DNA from: an uncultured SAR86 cluster bacterium
Lineage (GTDB): Bacteria > Pseudomonadota > Gammaproteobacteria > Magnimaribacterales > Magnimaribacteraceae
Length of the DNA stretch: 64,000 nt
Direction: 5' to 3'
Assembly (NCBI GenBank): GCA_902594545.1
Contig: CACJMO010000003.1
Location: 1-64,000, forward strand
The position numbers were made by a program, and so were the translations under genes. The stretch's first letter is position 1, and every line of letters starts with the position of its first letter. The notes beneath the pieces are model-generated. The model had not been told where the DNA came from. It made no database searches and was given only the letters and a program-made list of their open reading frames with translations. Positions 5,312-60,446 of the stretch are shown in pieces.

Positions 5312-6280
5312 ATGAAAAAAATAAACCACCTGTTGTCTGCACGAAAAACCCTAAAGATAGAAGCAAAGGGTATAGAAAACTTATCAAAAAATTTATCAAA
5401 AGAGTTTAATGAGGTTTGCGACAGCTTACTCAAAGCTAAAGGTAAAATATTTACTTTGGGGATTGGTAAATCAGGGCACATTGCAAAAAAAATATCAGCC
5501 ACTCTTTCCAGCACAGGGTCGCCTTCTAGTTTTATCAATGCAGGAGAAGCACTACACGGAGATATTGGTGCAATAACAAAAAAAGATAAGGTCTTAATCT
5601 TCTCTCATTCTGGACAGAGCGAAGAGATTATCCATTTAATTCCTTATTTAAAATCTGTAGGTTGTGAATATTTTTCAATTACTGGGTCAAGAAACTCTCA
5701 CATTGCACTTAACTCGATGATCAACCTAGATACAGGAGTGTCTGAAGAGGCCTGTCCTCTTGATCTGGCGCCAACAACTAGCACCACTGCAGCACTTGCT
5801 TTAGGCGATGCAATAGCTGTCGCGTTACTTGAAGCGAAGGGTTTTCAATCTGAAGATTTCGCTAAATCGCACCCAGGTGGCAAGTTGGGCAAAAGACTGA
5901 TAACTAAAGTTCAAGATTTAATGAAGCAAGGCAAAGAACTGCCAATAGTTTCATCGAATACCACTTTGTCTGAAACTTTAATTGAAATAAGCACCAAAGG
6001 TTTAGGAGTTGCCTTGGTAGTAGATAAAGAAAAATTAAAGGGTATCTTCACTGATGGAGATCTCAGAAGAACCTTGAATGAAGAAGAAGATCCATTAAGA
6101 AAGCATGTATCGAAATACATGACAAAAGATACAAAAACAATTTCCAAAGATTGTTTGGCGATAGAAGCATTGGAAATAATGCAAAATAATAAAATCTACT
6201 CGATTGCCGTTACCGATCAAAAAAACTTACCTGTGGGCATTATTAGAATGCATGATCTCATAGAAGCCGGACTGGTTTGA
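5312..6280 (+). CDS. kdsD: D-arabinose 5-phosphate isomerase
   Basis: KdsD interconverts ribulose 5-phosphate and arabinose 5-phosphate for Kdo synthesis, hence for LPS. It has 322 residues with an N-terminal SIS sugar-isomerase domain (GIGKSGHIAKKISATLSSTG; FSHSGQSEEI), the KSHPGGKLGKR motif near residue 185, and two C-terminal CBS domains (about 205-320). Its TGA overlaps the next ATG by one base. The Kdo-8-phosphate phosphatase gene kdsC, which normally sits between kdsD and lptC, is missing from this position. Confidence 0.96.
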   Translation: MKKINHLLSARKTLKIEAKGIENLSKNLSKEFNEVCDSLLKAKGKIFTLGIGKSGHIAKKISATLSSTGSPSSFINAGEALHGDIGAITKKDKVLIFSHSGQSEEIIHLIPYLKSVGCEYFSITGSRNSHIALNSMINLDTGVSEEACPLDLAPTTSTTAALALGDAIAVALLEAKGFQSEDFAKSHPGGKLGKRLITKVQDLMKQGKELPIVSSNTTLSETLIEISTKGLGVALVVDKEKLKGIFTDGDLRRTLNEEEDPLRKHVSKYMTKDTKTISKDCLAIEALEIMQNNKIYSIAVTDQKNLPVGIIRMHDLIEAGLV

Positions 6281-6963
6281 TGCCAAAAACTAAGATTGTT
6301 TACCTGGCCCTTTTAATGGTAATCGCCAATTTTGTTAGCGCACAGTCTAAGACTTTGATTGAGATTAATAATCCCTTCATCAACCTGTCCTATCCAGATA
6401 AATCAATTGCAATAAAGGCTTTAAGTACAAAAAACATTGAAGGTAATAGATTTATCTTGGAAGGACCTATAGTAGAGATTAAGGGCCAAGGCTTTACTTT
6501 AGATTTAAAATCGGCAGTGGCTCTCTTTGATAAAACAAAGAATATCTTGGAACTAAACAGAGAAGCTAAACTATTATCAGGTAAAGAATACAATCAAATA
6601 CGAATAGCTTCTGATGAATTAGTTTTCGATATTGAAGACATGTTGCTGACTAGTGTTAAAGAAGTTGAGACTAATATTGACAATATAAAGATTATTTCTT
6701 TAGGGATGCGAGTCATGCAGAATAGTTCTGGAATTAATGCACAATTTAATAAAGGAAATGTATCTATAAAAATCAAAGAAAAATTAAGTCTAGGATATGC
6801 AGAAAAGGTGAAGGTTATTGTCGATAAAAAAGAATTGATTTTAGAAGGTGCGGCTTACTTAAATCATAACGATCTGATAATTGAGTCGGACCTGATTCAC
6901 TTTAGCTACGCCAATAATGAGATAACCAAATCCTTAAATGCAAAAATAAGAAATAACTCATGA
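6280..6963 (+). CDS. OstA-like LPS transport protein, apparent LptC/LptA merger
   Basis: This 227-residue protein occupies the slot where separate lptC and lptA genes normally lie, between kdsD and lptB. The ATG at 6280 overlaps the kdsD TGA. An N-terminal hydrophobic segment ends in FVSAQS, so it is either a cleaved signal or an anchor. Residues ~25-160 follow the LptC beta-jellyroll pattern, including a segment like ASDELVFDIEDMLLTS followed by MQNSSGINAQF, comparable to the end of E. coli LptC. Residues ~165-227 (YAEKVKVIVDKKELILEGAAY, then SDLIHFSYANNEI) resemble the second half of LptA. I infer a condensed LptC-LptA bridge carrying LPS from the LptBFG transporter. A second possibility is LptC alone with lptA elsewhere. 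Confidence 0.75.
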   Translation: MPKTKIVYLALLMVIANFVSAQSKTLIEINNPFINLSYPDKSIAIKALSTKNIEGNRFILEGPIVEIKGQGFTLDLKSAVALFDKTKNILELNREAKLLSGKEYNQIRIASDELVFDIEDMLLTSVKEVETNIDNIKIISLGMRVMQNSSGINAQFNKGNVSIKIKEKLSLGYAEKVKVIVDKKELILEGAAYLNHNDLIIESDLIHFSYANNEITKSLNAKIRNNS

Positions 6964-7685
6964 GACTCGCCGTATCTGAAATTACAAAAAGCTATAAAGA
7001 CAAAATTGTTCTAAAGGGAATAACTTTCGAAATGAACAAAGGTCAGACTGTAGGTATTTTGGGGCCTAATGGAGCTGGAAAAACTACACTTTTTTATATC
7101 ATTGCAGGCTTACTTAAATGTGATGCAGGAAAAATTACATTGGCTGATTCAGAAATAAATCATAAATCTATTTCTGAAAGAACTTCTTTGGGCCTTGCTT
7201 ATTTGCCCCAAGAATCTTCAATTTTCAAAGGTTTAACAGTAAAGGAAAACATTCTCTCAGCATTACAACAAAATAGACAAATTTCTAAATCAGAACTAAA
7301 TTCGGAGTTAAATCTTTTATTGGAAGAGTTTAAACTTCTAGAATTCTCGGAGACTCTTGGTATTAAACTATCCGGTGGGGAAAGGAGAAGAACAGAGATA
7401 GCCAGAGCTCTAGCCCTAAACCCTAAGTTTATTCTGTTAGATGAACCTTTTGCTGGAATTGATCCTATAGCTGTATCTGATCTAAAACAAACAATAAATC
7501 AACTGAATCGGAAGGACATAGGTGTATTAATCAGTGATCACAATGTAAGAGATACTATGAATATATGTTCGAAAGTACTTGTGGTGAATCAAGGCAAGAT
7601 CATCGCTGATGGCGAACCCTCGAAAATAGCACAAGACTCGTTGGTAAAAGAAGTATATTTAGGACAAGATTTCCAAACAAATTAG
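6960..7685 (+). CDS. lptB: LPS export ABC transporter ATPase LptB
   Basis: LptB is the cytoplasmic ATPase that powers LPS extraction by LptF-LptG. In 241 residues it has the Walker A GPNGAGKTT (about 35-43), a Q-loop (LPQESSIFKGLTV), the signature LSGGERRR (about 137), Walker B FILLDEPFAGIDP and the switch histidine in ISDHNVRDT. The start overlaps the preceding stop as ATGA, and its TAG overlaps the rpoN GTG. Its partners LptF and LptG are encoded at 58.4-60.4 kb in this window. Confidence 0.97.
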   Translation: MRLAVSEITKSYKDKIVLKGITFEMNKGQTVGILGPNGAGKTTLFYIIAGLLKCDAGKITLADSEINHKSISERTSLGLAYLPQESSIFKGLTVKENILSALQQNRQISKSELNSELNLLLEEFKLLEFSETLGIKLSGGERRRTEIARALALNPKFILLDEPFAGIDPIAVSDLKQTINQLNRKDIGVLISDHNVRDTMNICSKVLVVNQGKIIADGEPSKIAQDSLVKEVYLGQDFQTN

Positions 7686-8959
7686 TGAAGCAAAGTTTAA
7701 AACAAAAGCAGAAGTTAAGCTTAAATATCACTGCAACCCTCAGCAAACAAATTGGTCTACTCTCCCTCAGTGGTTTTGAGATAAGCAAAAGGTTAAATGA
7801 CTTAATTGATCAATATTATGAAGAGGGTGACAAGACAGTTAGATACTTCAAAGAACAGTATCTCGTTGATAAATACAAATATGCCCTCAGGTTTGAAATA
7901 AAGGACCACATGGACCAATCAGATGATGAAACATCTGATTTAAGACAAAATCTTTTGAATCAGCTTGAAATTTCACCTTTAGATTCCATTGAGAACTTAG
8001 TTGGAGAATTTTTGATTGATTCAGTAGAGGATAATGGCAGGCTTGATCCTGATTTAGATTACCAAGATATTAAACGAATAGTCTTCGAAGACTTTGATTT
8101 TAAAATAACTGACCAAGAAATAGATAAAGTCCTGAAAATTATTCAAAATTTTGATCCACCAGGTTGTGCGTATAGAAATATTCAAGAATCGATGGACATT
8201 CAAATCGATAACTTGGACTTAAGCTCGCAACAAAAAGAAAATTTAAGACTTAATCTAAAAGATATTTTAGAGGAGAAAATTTCTTTAGATATGCTTACTC
8301 AAGAACTTAGAGATAATCTATCAAAACTGACGCTACATCCCGCAAGTAGTTTTGGTGATATAGATTCCAATTATGTCAGACCTGATGTTGTTGCTCGGCC
8401 AAATGGATCCAACTGGATAATAATGTTGAATGATGACTTAATCTCTAAGGAGTTTCTTGAAAAAATAAAGACAAAGGTTGAAGGGGAAAATATAAAAAAT
8501 GAGGAAGCAAAGTCCTTCTTGAACGGCCTTGAGAGAAGACAACAGACCCTTTTAATGGTTAGTGAATATATCGTCGAAGCACAAAAAGAATACCTAAGAA
8601 GTGCTTCTGATAAAAATGCTATCTCAAACAAAGAGATAGCGAATAGATTAGGGATAAGCCCTTCAACTGTCTCTAGAATTGTAAGAAATAAATTCATCCA
8701 ATTTCCTGAAAAGCTCATACCTTTAAGTCAGCTCATGGAAAGAAGGATTAATAAGCATAACGAAGGTACCGATGTGACTGAGGAACGTTTGAAAAGTCTC
8801 ATTCTTGAAATGATAAAAGAAGAAGACAAAAAGAATCCTTTCAGCGATCAGACTCTCTCAAGACTTCTTGGCGAAAATGGAGTGGTCATTTCCAGAAGAA
8901 CAATCAGCAAGTACAGAAATGTTCTCAACATTCCTTCCTCAAGGGTAAGAAAAACTTAG
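7685..8959 (+). CDS. rpoN: RNA polymerase sigma-54 factor
   Basis: Sigma-54 directs RNA polymerase to -24/-12 promoters and requires AAA+ activators. The 424-residue protein is shorter than E. coli RpoN (477), mainly through a reduced acidic region. Region I (LKQKQKLSLNITATLSKQI), the core-binding domain (VGEFLIDSVEDNGRLDPDL), a helix-turn-helix near residue 315 (EIANRLGISPSTVSRIV) and the RpoN box RRTISKYR (about 404-411) are all present, so it looks functional. A GTG start overlaps the lptB TAG by one base. The hpf-ptsN-rapZ genes that usually follow are absent; convergent yhdP comes next. Confidence 0.96.
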   Translation: MKQSLKQKQKLSLNITATLSKQIGLLSLSGFEISKRLNDLIDQYYEEGDKTVRYFKEQYLVDKYKYALRFEIKDHMDQSDDETSDLRQNLLNQLEISPLDSIENLVGEFLIDSVEDNGRLDPDLDYQDIKRIVFEDFDFKITDQEIDKVLKIIQNFDPPGCAYRNIQESMDIQIDNLDLSSQQKENLRLNLKDILEEKISLDMLTQELRDNLSKLTLHPASSFGDIDSNYVRPDVVARPNGSNWIIMLNDDLISKEFLEKIKTKVEGENIKNEEAKSFLNGLERRQQTLLMVSEYIVEAQKEYLRSASDKNAISNKEIANRLGISPSTVSRIVRNKFIQFPEKLIPLSQLMERRINKHNEGTDVTEERLKSLILEMIKEEDKKNPFSDQTLSRLLGENGVVISRRTISKYRNVLNIPSSRVRKT

Positions 8960-8963
8960 CAGA

Positions 8964-11900
8964 TTATTTTTTTATATTCTCAAACCAGCCTTTAAATTCC
9001 GTTTTAGGATCCTCTAGTGTTCCTTTGACAGCCCAAGAGCCTGAACTTAACTTATCAAGATTCCTTTCAAAGGCCTTACCTGCTATGTATACAACACCGG
9101 CCGTAAATGGACCACCTAACAAAAGAGCGTAAGCTGGAAGGTATTCCCTCAAAGGAAGTGTCATAATCATCTCTAAATTAAGCTCTCCTAAAACGCCACT
9201 TTCTTTTCTTTCAATTTCTCCTTTCCAGGAAAATTCGCTGGAACCACTTTTGAATACTAAAGGAGTATTAAAAACAATTTTTTCTTTGAAAAGATCTACC
9301 CTGCCCTTTACAGAGTCAGCACTAAAACCAGATTTATAAAGCTTCCTAAAGTCCAAATTAGTTACTTTTTCAAATGAATCAGTGATATTGAAGATATTTA
9401 CTAGTCTCAAGAGATTATTCTGAGTCTGCAATTCAGTTTGCTCTAGTATTAAAAGTCCTTTTGCATTAATAGATACATCACCCAAAATTGATGGATAATC
9501 AAGCTGCCATGGAAGAGATGGCCAGTTTACTTTCAGTGTGGCTTCAAATGTATCCATCTCAAAATTAGGCTCTATTCCAATTTGTTTAAAAGCTTTCTCA
9601 GGAGAGCCTGAATACACTTTGGCAAGCAATTCACTTTTCCAACCAAGTCTACTTCTTGAAATACTTAACCTCGACAAACCTTCAGATGTTTCTGTTAAAC
9701 CCCACTTTTCGTATTTTCCTTCCAGGTTGTCAAGATATATGGCATTTCCTTCAGGAATTAGGTCGAAAGACCAACTCCCATAATTAACTGAATCCAGCAG
9801 CAATGATTTAGTTTTTAATTTGAGCTTTACATCAAGATTATTAAAAACATTTAAAAAAGTAGACTTAGAATTATCTTGAGATAAGTTTACGTTGATAAAA
9901 TCTAAATCTAGTTCTGGATAAAACTCACCAGTTTTAGGCAATGAAAGCGTTCCTCGCAAGATTTTGTTATCTATATCCAAGATTAAATATTCTTTGGAAT
10001 CGATACTTCTTATTGAAGTTTTAGGCAATCTAAAATCTGATAAAACAATTTCGTCAAAAGATAAATTTTTAATAACTAGATCAAAATTACTGTTATCAGT
10101 TGAAAATTGTAAGTCATCTAATATGTCCAGATTTAGTCTCTCTATTTTTCCTATTACAGAAACAATACCAGCCTCTATGCTGATAGACTGCTTGTCCTTT
10201 CCTGCAATAAAATAACCTTCTGTAACTTTTTGTGACAGATTAAATTTGCCTCTCAATATATTGTCGTACCTGAATTGAACTCTCGAAAAATCATTCTTAA
10301 AAGAAGGGTAAAGGCTTAAGCTCAATGATAAAGCCTCTTTTTTATCCTTATAGAATGGATCTGCAATGCCTATCTCAGTACCAAGTAAGTCTGTTTTAAA
10401 ACTCAGGTACGGATTTCTTACTTCATTGCCTTTTATTAAAGAGGGAATAAAAATTTCTATCAAGGCTTTAGAGGATCCAGTAACTTTTGATTGATAAGCA
10501 TCTGGTAAGAAATTTTGTAACTGAATTATCTCTTCAGCACTAAAGGACACATAACCCTTCTTCTCATGGTTTTTTTCAAGATCAAAAATTAAAGGGATCG
10601 AGTTTGCTTTCATGGAAACGAAGCCATTTTGAAAGCCCTTATTACTATCATAATTAATGTCAAAGAAAATATTATTTAAAAGATATTTTAGATTAGCTAT
10701 CTCTACTTCACCTCTCTTACCTTCGCTACTTACTGACAAATTTGAATCTTTATCTAATAGAGATATTTGTTGTTTCAGGGGAGAATCAAAATTAAATTTA
10801 GTTTGGTGCGAACCACTTGATGATGAATTGACGTAATTTTCGCCCAATAACAATTTAGTTATAGTAGAAAAAGGCCCCTCCGAAGTTCCATTTACATTCA
10901 AGAAGTAGATGCCTTCTTTCAAATATGTTTCAAAATTCGCTTGTATTGAGGATTCCAAGAATTTTCCTTCATCAACCTTGCCTTTTAAAACGAAATTATT
11001 TACTTCAAAATTCGTATTTACATCTTCGATGAAGTAAGAATTAACATCTATACATAACCCCCTACCCTCAGCACTCATTCCAAACGAAGCAGTATTAAAG
11101 CTGTAATTAGCGTCAATTGGGCCTCGATAAGCTACAAAAGCATTTCTGTAACTGCCGCACTCAATGAAATCAGAAAGAAAATCATAAGTACTAGTTAAGT
11201 AAAATGTTTTAGGAAATAATTTCAGGGCTGAAGAGTGGTTCAAATCAACAGATGTAACTTGCAGGCTTATATTTCCTAACCTTGATGTTGGGACAGGATT
11301 CAAAGATACATGCCCTTCAAATCTATCACCATCCAATAGAGAGGAGAACGGAGAACTTAAAATCTTCAAACCGAAAGGAGTATTATGAAAATTAATTTCT
11401 GATTTAAAGTCGTTAAGGTGAAGATTTTCATAGGAAAAGAGATCTGAAGTTATTTTTAGTAGAGGACTGAATAAAGTGACTTCACCTTCATTGTCATTAA
11501 AAGAGATCTTGCCGCTTAAACCTTCAAATTGAATAAGTTTATGTTTCACATTTATCTCTTGGAATATAGAGCTTAAGAGCTGCTGATTTGAGAATAAATT
11601 AATTCTCGTATCAAGCAAGAGACCGTTCAGATCGGTATTATTTGTCACCAATTGTATAAAAGAATTAACAACACGATCCTCACTAAGATTGATAAAAGGT
11701 ATGTTGATGTTAATGCCATCATTAAATTCAATGAGAAAATTGGGTAATTTATTAGAAGTATCTTGATTTAGATAAGAGCTAAATTGTATTGCGACATCAG
11801 TGGAATCTTGAAGCTTGAAACTCGAATTTATATTATTGAGCCCGTAGGTGTTTCCATCTAAGACAAGATCTAGATTGCCTTTTATGTCTATTAGCTTCCA

Positions 11901-12578
11901 ATCTAGAAAGCGGAACGTACTATCAGCCTTAAATAAAACCTGAGAGTTACAGCTTTCACAAATCAAATTTAGAATTATTTCATTAACCTTAAATTTTTCA
12001 GTATGAATGAAACCCCTAAAAAGACCGCCGCTTAAATTTTGATCAGGAATAATTCTTAATTCAAGTTTATTTCTATTTTCATCAAAAAGATTAGCATTAA
12101 CGTTAGGTCCTGCTGAAGAAAATGAAGAGTTTAAGTCCAAGGTAACAAAAACCTTATTTTCTTCATTTAACAACCTCAAATCTTCTATAGTTAAAAAGTC
12201 TATTCCATACAAAAAATTAATAGGTTCAAAGGATAATTCACTTCCATTCTTTTGCTGATTAAAATAATAAGAGACTCCAGAGAGACTTACATTGGAAATC
12301 ATTTCTCCAATCAAGAATTTCAACAAAGAAAATTCAATGACAATTTCTTCTATATTGGAAATACCTTCTTTAGATTCTGACTTGAAATCTTTGATGGTTA
12401 ATGAAGGATTGGTTGGATGCCAGTTTGATTCGTGTATGGAGAATCTAACTTGAGGGTCAACATTGTTAGCAAAAATGTATGAGTAAAAATCCTTTTGCAA
12501 CAGTAAGATAGAAAGAACCAAAACAACTCCAAGATAAATTGATATTATCCAGATAAGAAAAGTTATAGATTTCTTCAT
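8964..12578 (-). CDS. yhdP: YhdP family AsmA-like intermembrane phospholipid transport protein
   Basis: This 1204-residue protein is close to the E. coli YhdP size (1266). One N-terminal transmembrane helix (about 5-28) is followed by a very long beta-rich periplasmic region. The C terminus has the AsmA-like end (YAPAY-type segment LREYLPAYALLLGGPFTAG, then a short amphipathic tail GTLEDPKTEFKGWFENIKK). Family members such as YhdP, TamB and YdbH form hydrophobic grooves bridging inner and outer membranes and carry phospholipids outward. It follows mreD after 7 bp, as in gammaproteobacteria where yhdP lies downstream of mreBCD. No intact Mla system is visible here, so this protein could be a main lipid bridge (inference). 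Confidence 0.88.
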   Translation of the reverse strand: MKKSITFLIWIISIYLGVVLVLSILLLQKDFYSYIFANNVDPQVRFSIHESNWHPTNPSLTIKDFKSESKEGISNIEEIVIEFSLLKFLIGEMISNVSLSGVSYYFNQQKNGSELSFEPINFLYGIDFLTIEDLRLLNEENKVFVTLDLNSSFSSAGPNVNANLFDENRNKLELRIIPDQNLSGGLFRGFIHTEKFKVNEIILNLICESCNSQVLFKADSTFRFLDWKLIDIKGNLDLVLDGNTYGLNNINSSFKLQDSTDVAIQFSSYLNQDTSNKLPNFLIEFNDGININIPFINLSEDRVVNSFIQLVTNNTDLNGLLLDTRINLFSNQQLLSSIFQEINVKHKLIQFEGLSGKISFNDNEGEVTLFSPLLKITSDLFSYENLHLNDFKSEINFHNTPFGLKILSSPFSSLLDGDRFEGHVSLNPVPTSRLGNISLQVTSVDLNHSSALKLFPKTFYLTSTYDFLSDFIECGSYRNAFVAYRGPIDANYSFNTASFGMSAEGRGLCIDVNSYFIEDVNTNFEVNNFVLKGKVDEGKFLESSIQANFETYLKEGIYFLNVNGTSEGPFSTITKLLLGENYVNSSSSGSHQTKFNFDSPLKQQISLLDKDSNLSVSSEGKRGEVEIANLKYLLNNIFFDINYDSNKGFQNGFVSMKANSIPLIFDLEKNHEKKGYVSFSAEEIIQLQNFLPDAYQSKVTGSSKALIEIFIPSLIKGNEVRNPYLSFKTDLLGTEIGIADPFYKDKKEALSLSLSLYPSFKNDFSRVQFRYDNILRGKFNLSQKVTEGYFIAGKDKQSISIEAGIVSVIGKIERLNLDILDDLQFSTDNSNFDLVIKNLSFDEIVLSDFRLPKTSIRSIDSKEYLILDIDNKILRGTLSLPKTGEFYPELDLDFINVNLSQDNSKSTFLNVFNNLDVKLKLKTKSLLLDSVNYGSWSFDLIPEGNAIYLDNLEGKYEKWGLTETSEGLSRLSISRSRLGWKSELLAKVYSGSPEKAFKQIGIEPNFEMDTFEATLKVNWPSLPWQLDYPSILGDVSINAKGLLILEQTELQTQNNLLRLVNIFNITDSFEKVTNLDFRKLYKSGFSADSVKGRVDLFKEKIVFNTPLVFKSGSSEFSWKGEIERKESGVLGELNLEMIMTLPLREYLPAYALLLGGPFTAGVVYIAGKAFERNLDKLSSGSWAVKGTLEDPKTEFKGWFENIKK

Positions 12579-57995: not shown

Positions 57996-58406
57996 ATGGA
58001 AAATGCAGGTTTCTTTAGAAGAATTTTTTCTCTTATCTATGATTCATTTGCTGTTCTTGGGATTATTTTATCTTTTACTTTACTGTTGGTCTTAGTAAAT
58101 GGAGAGGCACCAAAAAGCGGAGGTTTTGTTGATTTTTTGCAACTTTGTATCACCTTACTATCTGGTCCAGTTTTTTATTCATACTTTTGGATAGCAAATA
58201 AAGGTCAAACTTTAGGTATGCAAGCTTGGAAAATTAAGCTTATTTCAGAAGAGAATCTTACAGTTAGAGTTTGTATTCTAAGGTGCGCCTTTTCTACGTT
58301 CTCATTTTTGTTTTTTGGAATAGGTTACTTTCTTATCTTTCTTAGAAAAGATAATAAATCTTTAGCAGATTTAGCTACCAAGACCAGAATTGTCAGGGTT
58401 AGCTAG
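57996..58406 (+). CDS. RDD family membrane protein
   Basis: The 136-residue protein has three or four hydrophobic helices and the RDD pattern: FFRRIFSLIYDSFAV at the start, GQTLGMQAWKIKL in the middle and SLADLATKTRIV at the end. The function of small RDD proteins is poorly known; ion transport has been proposed for some. It is divergent from the POT transporter (57 bp) and overlaps lptG tail to tail by 8 bp. The same neighbour beside pepA/lptFG is common in gammaproteobacteria. Confidence 0.9.
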   Translation: MENAGFFRRIFSLIYDSFAVLGIILSFTLLLVLVNGEAPKSGGFVDFLQLCITLLSGPVFYSYFWIANKGQTLGMQAWKIKLISEENLTVRVCILRCAFSTFSFLFFGIGYFLIFLRKDNKSLADLATKTRIVRVS

Positions 58407-59457
58407 ACTTGAGCTTCCAAAAATAGACTGTTACAAAAATTGTAAAAACTAAAGGTATGACAACAGCATTAAAAGGATTTAAAAGAGAAACTGCTGCCAT
58501 GCTCTCAAATAAGTTTCGGAGAATATTGAGACTGAAGGCAAACAGGATACCGAAGAGAATTCTTTTCCCAAGGCTATCATCCCTAATATTTCCAAAAACA
58601 AAAGAAGCTGCTAGAAGAATCAAGAGAACAGTTGAAAAAGGATGAAATATTTTTCTCCAGAATTCTAAAAGGAGATTATTAGCTCGATATTCAGAAATTT
58701 CTTCTTTTAATGCACCTCTAAGTTCATTTAAGGAGAAATACCTCGGCGAAAGGACTCTCTTCATATCGCTTGGACTGGGTCCTTCAAGCCAGATTTCAGA
58801 GTTCTTGTAAGAAATCTGTTTCTTTCCAAGATCATTGATCATCAGTTCGTGCATAATCCACTGGTCATCATTGAACTCAGCAAATTTTGAACTAATAATT
58901 CTTTTAATTTGTTGTTGATTAGAGGTTTCATATATTGTTATCTCATCTACACGGTTTCTCTCAGGTGATGACCTAAAATAATTAAACGCTGAGGGTGAAG
59001 CGAACCAGTAACCTTCATCTAAAGCTATTTTATTCTGCTTAATTAGTCTTGATTCTTCGTTACTTTGAGAGATCTTGGGCAATGCGGCTTCTTGAAAGAT
59101 AAGTCCAACTAAAATGATCAGAAACACAGGCCTTAATGCAGCAAACACTATATTCAAGTTTGATTTTCCTAAGGTCCTTGATGCTATCAACTCTCCCTCT
59201 TCTTTCATGTTGCCAAGTCCAAGCAGAACACCCAAAAGACATATATAAGAGAGATACTCATAAATTGATATAGGAATTGAATAAAGGCTATAAAAGAAAG
59301 CATCAGAAAGTAGATAAGAATTTGTAATATCAGGAATTTCAGCTAAAAAAGTAAATAGAAAATCTAATACTGAAATTGCAACCGTAACAAGAGCTATACC
59401 CAGTAGTATTTTTCTAGAGATATTCCTCTCTACAATGTCGCCTGTCAAATAAATCAC
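58399..59457 (-). CDS. lptG: LPS export permease LptG
   Basis: LptG pairs with LptF and LptB to extract LPS from the inner membrane. The 352 residues form six membrane helices split by a central beta-jellyroll periplasmic domain (about 130-260). The start is a GTG overlapping the lptF TAG (TAGTG). The cytoplasmic coupling region near GELIASRTLG is present. Confidence 0.95.
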   Translation of the reverse strand: MIYLTGDIVERNISRKILLGIALVTVAISVLDFLFTFLAEIPDITNSYLLSDAFFYSLYSIPISIYEYLSYICLLGVLLGLGNMKEEGELIASRTLGKSNLNIVFAALRPVFLIILVGLIFQEAALPKISQSNEESRLIKQNKIALDEGYWFASPSAFNYFRSSPERNRVDEITIYETSNQQQIKRIISSKFAEFNDDQWIMHELMINDLGKKQISYKNSEIWLEGPSPSDMKRVLSPRYFSLNELRGALKEEISEYRANNLLLEFWRKIFHPFSTVLLILLAASFVFGNIRDDSLGKRILFGILFAFSLNILRNLFESMAAVSLLNPFNAVVIPLVFTIFVTVYFWKLKSS

Positions 59458-60446
59458 TAGGCCAACCTCTTGCTATTGAAATTGAGAAACAGAGCTGCCA
59501 ATAAGAAGATTATATGTATGACGGAGAAAGAGAAGGTATTAGACTCTTCTTCACCTTTAAAACTGAGCAATAGACCAATATAAATAGAAAATAAAAGTAA
59601 GGCTGGCAATACTCTTGAATATCTACCTTTTCTTGGATTAATTTTGCTAATTGGAAGTGCTATAAAAACACTTATGAATATCAACATGACTAAAGAAATA
59701 GACCAAATAGATGAGTTAGTACCCTTCTCAATCTCAGCTGAAGAAATAGCAGCTCTAACCTCTGAATGATTATTCACAATAGTTGAGTTGGTAAATTCAA
59801 TAACCTCAAGTTTCTCCAAATCTGATATCGAGTACGCTATACCATTCTTTAATATTAAATCTTGTTTATTGTCTGAAAGTTTTATGGTCTTAGCTTTGAT
59901 TATCTTTTCTGCATCTCCATCTTTCTGAAGTGTAAATACTTCTTGCAGACCTTTATCATCCTTGTTTCTCGCAAATACTATAAAACCCCCTACTTTGTGA
60001 AATTGTCCTGGTGTGATGGTGTTGAAAGAATCTTGAATGGATTCAGATTCAAGAAGGCTTTTTGCTTTTGCATCAAGACCAGGACTTAAGACCATGGAGA
60101 AATAAATTAAAATTATCGATATTAAAGTTGCAGGTATCAGCAAGAGGTAATAAGTTTTTAGGGCACTGAGACCTGCCTGCTCCATAATTACAAATTCACT
60201 ATCTGCCCTTAATCTGCCTATTGTTAGAACTATAGAAAGAAAAAATCCCAAAGGTAAAATTAGCTCAAGGAATTCGGGCAATCTCAAGAGCACAACAGTA
60301 AATACAACCTCGGCATTAATTTCTCCTCTAGAGGCCTGTTCAAGATATTGAATAGTTCTTGACGAAACTATTAACAAAATAAAGATCAAGCTAATGGATA
60401 AAGTATATGAGAAAATACTCTTCAGAAAATAACGATTTAAAATCAT
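59457..60446 (-). CDS. lptF: LPS export permease LptF
   Basis: LptF (329 residues) has the same architecture as LptG: six membrane helices around a periplasmic jellyroll (about 125-245) with the cytoplasmic motif DSEFVIMEQAGLSALKTY that contacts LptB. lptF-lptG is divergent from pepA, the standard gammaproteobacterial arrangement. The 125-bp gap to pepA is AT-rich and must hold both promoters, but I could not select one with confidence. Confidence 0.96.
   Translation of the reverse strand: MILNRYFLKSIFSYTLSISLIFILLIVSSRTIQYLEQASRGEINAEVVFTVVLLRLPEFLELILPLGFFLSIVLTIGRLRADSEFVIMEQAGLSALKTYYLLLIPATLISIILIYFSMVLSPGLDAKAKSLLESESIQDSFNTITPGQFHKVGGFIVFARNKDDKGLQEVFTLQKDGDAEKIIKAKTIKLSDNKQDLILKNGIAYSISDLEKLEVIEFTNSTIVNNHSEVRAAISSAEIEKGTNSSIWSISLVMLIFISVFIALPISKINPRKGRYSRVLPALLLFSIYIGLLLSFKGEEESNTFSFSVIHIIFLLAALFLNFNSKRLA

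Follow-up and report, generated by a model that had tools for sequence, protein, structure and literature searches.

Between kdsD and lptB most other gammaproteobacteria carry kdsC, lptC and lptA, and the corresponding locus of an uncultured SAR86 cluster bacterium (GCA_902594545.1, contig CACJMO010000003.1) raises the question of how LPS crosses the periplasm when a single gene stands there alone. We analysed, entirely by computation, positions 1-64,000 of this contig, hereafter the window, from a genome of 39 contigs and 1.34 Mb that is 71% complete. The first-pass annotation of this DNA had described one 227-residue gene between kdsD and lptB and had placed LptB, LptF and LptG in the same window, and we find all of them there: the bridge gene, whose product we call P0001, begins with an ATG at 6280 and its stop codon ends at 6963 on the plus strand, LptB is matched by TIGR04406, and LptF and LptG are both matched by PF03739. 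The features of interest are these:

5312-6280, plus strand: kdsD, arabinose-5-phosphate isomerase type (SIS and CBS domains by Pfam/NCBIfam)
6280-6963, plus strand: bridge gene encoding P0001, 227 aa, a predicted composite of LptC and LptA (ORF, profiles, model)
6397-6774, plus strand: LptC-like part, residues ~40-165 (hhalign slices; superposition on LptC 3my2/4b54)
6586-6960, plus strand: LptA-like part, residues ~103-227, overlapping the LptC-like part (hhalign slice; superposition on 2r19_B)
6960-7685, plus strand: lptB, LPS exporter ATPase (TIGR04406, 318.7 bits, cut-off 240)
7685-8959, plus strand: rpoN (sigma-54), next gene of the same run (Pfam/NCBIfam)
58399-59457, minus strand: lptG (PF03739, 161 bits)
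59457-60446, minus strand: lptF (PF03739, 149 bits; top PDB matches are LptF chains)
59835-59837, minus strand: codon 204 of lptF, encoding Ala at the position of Arg212 in E. coli LptF

Reading of the sequence shows that the ATG of the bridge gene overlaps the kdsD stop codon (TGATG) and that its own stop codon overlaps the lptB ATG at 6960. At this site, kdsC has no place between kdsD and the bridge gene in SAR86 (window 6277-6280). The N-terminus of P0001 holds a short hydrophobic stretch and is a likely signal peptide comprising residues 1-21 (V19-S-A21), judged by eye and with a crude -3/-1 rule, and the longest uncharged N-terminal run, also a crude measure, is 11 residues in P0001 vs 17-18 in genus g2 and 20-24 in f3, a family introduced below. 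From these sequences the LptC membrane helix appears to have been replaced by a signal peptide in most of the window's genus; excerpts of PMC4986956 report that deletion of this helix is viable in E. coli.

Taken alone, P0001 is too divergent to reach the family cut-offs: it scores 18.3 bits (cut-off 21) with the LptC family PF06835 at residues 63-147, 16.3 bits (cut-off 38) with the LptC model TIGR04409, 17 bits (cut-off 20.4) with PF03968 (LptA/LptD_N) at residues 109-208, and 21.6 bits (cut-off 71.7) with the LptA model TIGR03002. Comparison by hhalign with P0001 as a single sequence is likewise weak (8.5 and 17.4), and a phmmer search of P0001 against the PDB matched no Lpt protein. A profile of the window's family, termed f1, was built from 24 sequences, leaving out G015, where the gene is split, and G020 and G026, where contigs end nearby, and was compared with reference profiles of 116 LptC and 116 LptA proteins from other gammaproteobacterial loci. 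This f1 profile matches LptC with an hhalign probability of 96.4 and LptA with 97.2, in different parts of the chain, at residues ~39-150 and ~104-222, respectively. For 60 column-shuffled copies of residues 24-227 the maximum scores are 13.5 (LptC) and 15.9 (LptA) vs the observed 57.4 and 73.3. One f1 member, L028 (243 aa), exceeds both Pfam cut-offs, with 45.4 bits for PF06835 and 49.4 bits for PF03968, and carries its LptC match at residues 11-164 and its LptA match at 128-230 of one chain.

The first-pass annotation held that the first two-thirds of the protein track LptC and that its end tracks LptA, and proposed a profile-profile comparison of each half. We find both resemblances: slice 24-150 gives probabilities of 96.4 for LptC and 43.5 for LptA, and slice 165-227, the segment whose LptA similarity had been singled out as decisive, gives 97.1 for LptA and 8.6 for LptC and, in the model described below, fits onto the last part of LptA, while a longer slice, 100-227, aligns with LptA 34-153 at 97.6. 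What has to be given up is an end-to-end layout, as the two matches overlap at ~104-150, where the end of LptC resembles the beginning of LptA; because the LptC and LptA profiles are themselves related (probability 89.9), this middle stretch can be assigned to neither.

Structure prediction is consistent with one continuous bridge. AlphaFold2 run with three SAR86 rows gave a poor model (pLDDT 52); with an alignment of 34 rows, to which LptC and LptA proteins from related loci had been added, it gave pLDDT 88.6 and pTM 0.75, and this deeper alignment leans toward those folds, so the model supports the layout without proving it. P0001 is predicted to form an N-terminal helix followed by 17 strands, from residue 33 to 225, that run without a linker as a continuous beta-jellyroll. 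In this model residues 103-227 superpose on LptA (2r19_B, 30-166) with an rmsd of 1.6 over 123 residues (Z 15.1), residues 41-165 on LptC (4b54, Z 14.3; 3my2, Z 14.1; rmsd 2.1-2.5), and residues 33-217 on a long LptD jellyroll (Z 17.1). These superpositions point to one jellyroll about 1.5 times the length of LptA, rather than two domains strung together. Taking the profiles and the model together with the genome, locus and LptF surveys below, we put at roughly three in four the probability that the product of the bridge gene is a single periplasmic LPS bridge standing in for LptC and LptA alike.

The single-gene arrangement is a trait of the whole SAR86 order, and it is composite in f1 only. 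A single ORF lies between kdsD and lptB in 42 of the 43 SAR86-order genomes that hold both flanks (24 f1, 7 f2, 4 f3, 8 f4), the one other gene (G015) being split. Bridges of f1 are 171-243 aa long. Those of f2 (8 sequences) and f4 (8 sequences) are LptA-type only, with 125-150 aa and probabilities of 98.3 and 98.2 for LptA and 11-32 for LptC, and those of f3 (4 sequences) are LptC-type only, with 183-238 aa and probabilities of 95.9 for LptC and 11 for LptA; PF06835 finds no separate LptC gene in f2 and f4 genomes. Among named relatives, this gene order recurs in single-cell and metagenome contigs of the SAR86 cluster. The named contigs L140-L143 repeat f1 and f2, and by sequence L140, L141, L143 and L139 appear to come from the organisms of G008, G007, G050 and G015, respectively. 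In G015 (L013:1164-1875) and L139 (2362-3073) the bridge gene is split into overlapping frames of 115 and 126 codons. The simplified Lpt machine suggested by the first-pass annotation is supported, but as a property of the order rather than of this genome, and the change in LptF that makes such a machine plausible had been missed.

Loss of a separate lptC is also found outside SAR86. Among 74 non-SAR86 loci around kdsD, 68 also hold lptB and 6 are cut off; lptC and lptA are both present in 64 of the 68, lptA only in three (Pseudohaliea rubra and two Halieaceae metagenome genomes) and lptC only in one. The order kdsD-kdsC-lptA-lptB, lacking lptC, is found in the Halieaceae loci L163, L187 and L191 and in L339 (G128). 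For the three Halieaceae a search of the locus finds no lptC, and a genome-wide search of the closed genome G128 returns no LptC match except a 787-aa ORF of LptD size. Across the class, sampled with 114 genomes, 104 have an LptC match above the family cut-off and 108 have such a match to LptA/LptD_N. Trees of KdsD and LptB place G128, Halieaceae and SAR86 apart (SAR86 support 98-99; the placement of G128 is weak), and lptC absence takes four changes on this tree. Three further genomes have unusual bridge genes: in MED641 (L162:4970-5524) a complete LptC stands alone between kdsD and lptB, with lptA absent at the locus; G151 (L338), a small genome, combines a weak LptC with a 224-aa LptA in which two stretches are LptA-like; and G172 (L347), also small, carries an LptC-like gene of 178 aa and lacks an LptA match.

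Excerpts of PMC4986956 and PMC9972910 report that when lptC is deleted in E. coli, with LptA supplied, 11 of 11 independent mutants carry LptF R212C, S or G, and that in such mutants a six-protein bridge forms in which LptF contacts LptA. We chose the lptC-less cases by gene content and read LptF afterwards, prompted by this result. The window LptF has Ala204 at the position equivalent to Arg212. Arginine is found here in 0/50 LptFs of the SAR86 order (of 52 genomes with a match, G026, a fragment, and G046 were left out) vs 62/69 others, namely the 70 best-ranked genomes that belong to the class but not to the order, except G119 and G162, together with G151, which was added because of its odd-looking LptC. 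The residues are S (18), I (3), L (3), V (2) and A (1) in f1; L (3), F (3), V, I and M in f2; I (3), F (3) and L (2) in f3; and L (6) in f4. The lptC-less L163, L187, L191 and L339 have H, N, H and Q, respectively, whereas Pseudohalioglobus, an lptC-bearing relative of the lptC-less Halieaceae, has R, as does MED641 with its complete LptC; in the other 13 LptC-bearing named genomes it is R in nine and Q, Q, Q and S in four. Pooled, Arg212 is present in 0/56 LptFs from SAR86, the three lptC-less Halieaceae and G128, a count that includes two named copies of f1/f2 organisms, vs 72/82 from LptC-bearing genomes. Left out of the pooled counts are G095, G135 and G138, which bear Arg212 and each lack an LptC match, so that their LptC state is unclear; since LptA is found in neither G135 nor G138 and only once, weakly, in G095, these three genomes may lack the lpt locus or hold a diverged one.

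The alternative that survives best is that the bridge shrank by genome streamlining and that Arg212 was lost by drift in a fast-evolving, AT-rich lineage, the two being functionally unlinked. SAR86 is one clade, such that 0/50 may reflect one event, and the number of independent pairs is only 2-3; all the differing ones go in the same, expected direction, but a sign test on so few cannot reach 0.05, and a contingency table of LptF 212 against LptC (p ~1e-28) was rejected as a measure of the link on account of this single clade. Further, 10 of the 82 LptC-bearing LptFs lack Arg, so loss of Arg212 would permit, not force, the loss of LptC; f3 has an LptC-type bridge, yet Arg212 is lost there too. 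Against drift, of 51 LptF columns conserved at ≥75% in 81 LptC-bearing LptFs, only that of Arg212 is lost in every one of the 52 SAR86 rows and of the four other lptC-less rows, and the residues that most often replace it in SAR86 (S, L, I, F) carry no charge. Nor does base composition explain the loss, in that the other lptC-less loci are not AT-rich (GC 0.61-0.70 in Halieaceae, 0.56 in G128) and lose the Arg, while MED641, a small AT-rich genome (locus GC 0.365) with a complete LptC, keeps it. We regard drift as unlikely on this evidence, although it deserves to be taken seriously.

A second alternative is that P0001 is only a divergent lptC (or lptA) product, with a diverged partner encoded elsewhere and two bridge proteins retained. 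SAR86 proteins do diverge fast (congeners are 24-37% identical to P0001), the window's own assembly is 71% complete, and lptA lies away from lptC in a few other gammaproteobacteria, e.g., G150 and G158. In this assembly, however, PF03968 and PF06835 each match in two places, the bridge gene and LptD, and a separate lptA or lptC is found neither there nor in G004, a congener from the same genus assembled as one contig of 1.59 Mb, where the same two places are the only matches; a full lptA elsewhere, which the first-pass annotation had said would speak against its reading, is therefore absent from both genomes as searched. PF03968 detects the LptA-type genes of f2 and f4 (127-150 aa), as well as many LptDs of 700 aa, yet reveals no extra LptA in the window's genus; it finds those short genes so readily that another like them would not have escaped it. 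The composite also matches both families within one protein. These results leave a hidden partner improbable, more so than drift. Collapse of two genes into one by misassembly or a frame error, to which the frame change in G015 and its near-copy L139 might seem to lend weight, is ruled out for practical purposes by the spread of one ORF in the same gene order across independent assemblies (23 of 24 f1 genomes with both flanks, and single-cell contigs).

We therefore return to a single bridge protein, and consider it most likely that the Lpt machine of SAR86 is a rewired one that by nature lacks LptC and has a merged bridge. Adjacent lptC and lptA genes may have been fused by a deletion between strand repeats that are homologous in the two; shared middle strands, with an LptC-like first part and an LptA-like last part, are as expected from such a fusion. 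The LptC-like end would dock on the LptF jellyroll and the LptA-like end on LptD, with LPS sliding along a single groove, so that LptB2FG, LptD and a single kind of bridge protein would make up the machine. Loss of LptF Arg212 would let LPS pass directly from LptF to a bridge of merged or LptA type. On this view only the LptA end would be left in the bridges of f2 and f4, a state like that of the E. coli suppressor strain, and only the LptC end in those of f3. A broader reading makes three claims jointly, that in SAR86 a single gene is what merging or trimming has left of lptC and lptA, that at least two other gammaproteobacterial lineages lost lptC, and that Arg212 is a natural switch that commits LptF to LptC, this last because each lptC-less lineage also lost Arg212; we give this combination slightly better than even odds.

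P0001 can be set against four known systems. Compared with LptC (E. coli, 3my2, 4b54, 6mit_C), residues ~40-165 are alike in profile and predicted fold and the gene is also upstream of lptB, but the C-terminal third is LptA-like and the N-terminus looks like a cleavable signal peptide rather than a long membrane anchor. Compared with LptA (2r19, 2r1a) and P. aeruginosa LptH (4uu4), residues ~103-227 superpose on nearly the whole of LptA, but ~60 extra jellyroll residues of the LptC kind stand in front, and a separate LptC is absent. The jellyroll is comparable in length to the N-terminal one of LptD (9a39, 4q35, 5iv9; Z 14.0-17.1 over 162-170 residues), but that one belongs to a barrel protein, whereas P0001 is separate and its own genome has its LptD. 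Finally, the E. coli six-protein machine, as described in excerpts of PMC4986956 and PMC9972910, shares with SAR86 the lack of a separate LptC and an LptF 212 that is not Arg, with G, S or C in the E. coli suppressors, Ala in the window and Ser in 18/27 of f1; that machine is a laboratory mutant with unchanged LptA in excess, while the SAR86 one is natural and its bridge merged or reshaped.

LptC, LptA, their fold and the six-protein laboratory machine are already known. In open-licence PubMed Central text we find neither a natural Lpt machine without LptC nor a fusion of LptC with LptA described, and no paper that joins SAR86 with LptC or Halieaceae with LptC. A 2022 study regards LptC as kept by all LPS-containing bacteria, and the lineages described here appear to be natural cases without a separate LptC, contrary to that premise. 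The scan of conserved LptF columns singled out the same position as the E. coli selection, which makes of the laboratory suppressor a prediction about evolution, open to test in lineages already available; SAR86, an abundant group of ocean bacteria, now has a cultured member, according to excerpts of PMC11582366. For structural studies of LPS passage through the periplasm, a merged bridge would be a simpler subject, and inhibitors directed against the LptC-LptA joint would find no target in bacteria that have one.

Several observations concern the remainder of the machine and the neighbourhood. LptD is encoded in the window's own genome by a 758-aa ORF on another contig (PF04453), and LptE has no Pfam match there; LptE is matched in 12/61 genomes of the set, and Pfam misses it in most of the SAR86 order, near-complete genomes included. 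Among the f4 genomes (G037, G040, G043, G046, G049, G052, G055 and G058) the LptD barrel has a Pfam match in 0/8, with LptA-type genes present in these genomes and LptF-like genes in seven, and a 730-aa ORF of G043 may be a very divergent LptD. Downstream of rpoN, beside mreBCD-like genes, the window encodes a 1204-aa protein (8964-12578, minus strand) in what we take to be the place occupied by the AsmA-like YhdP in E. coli.
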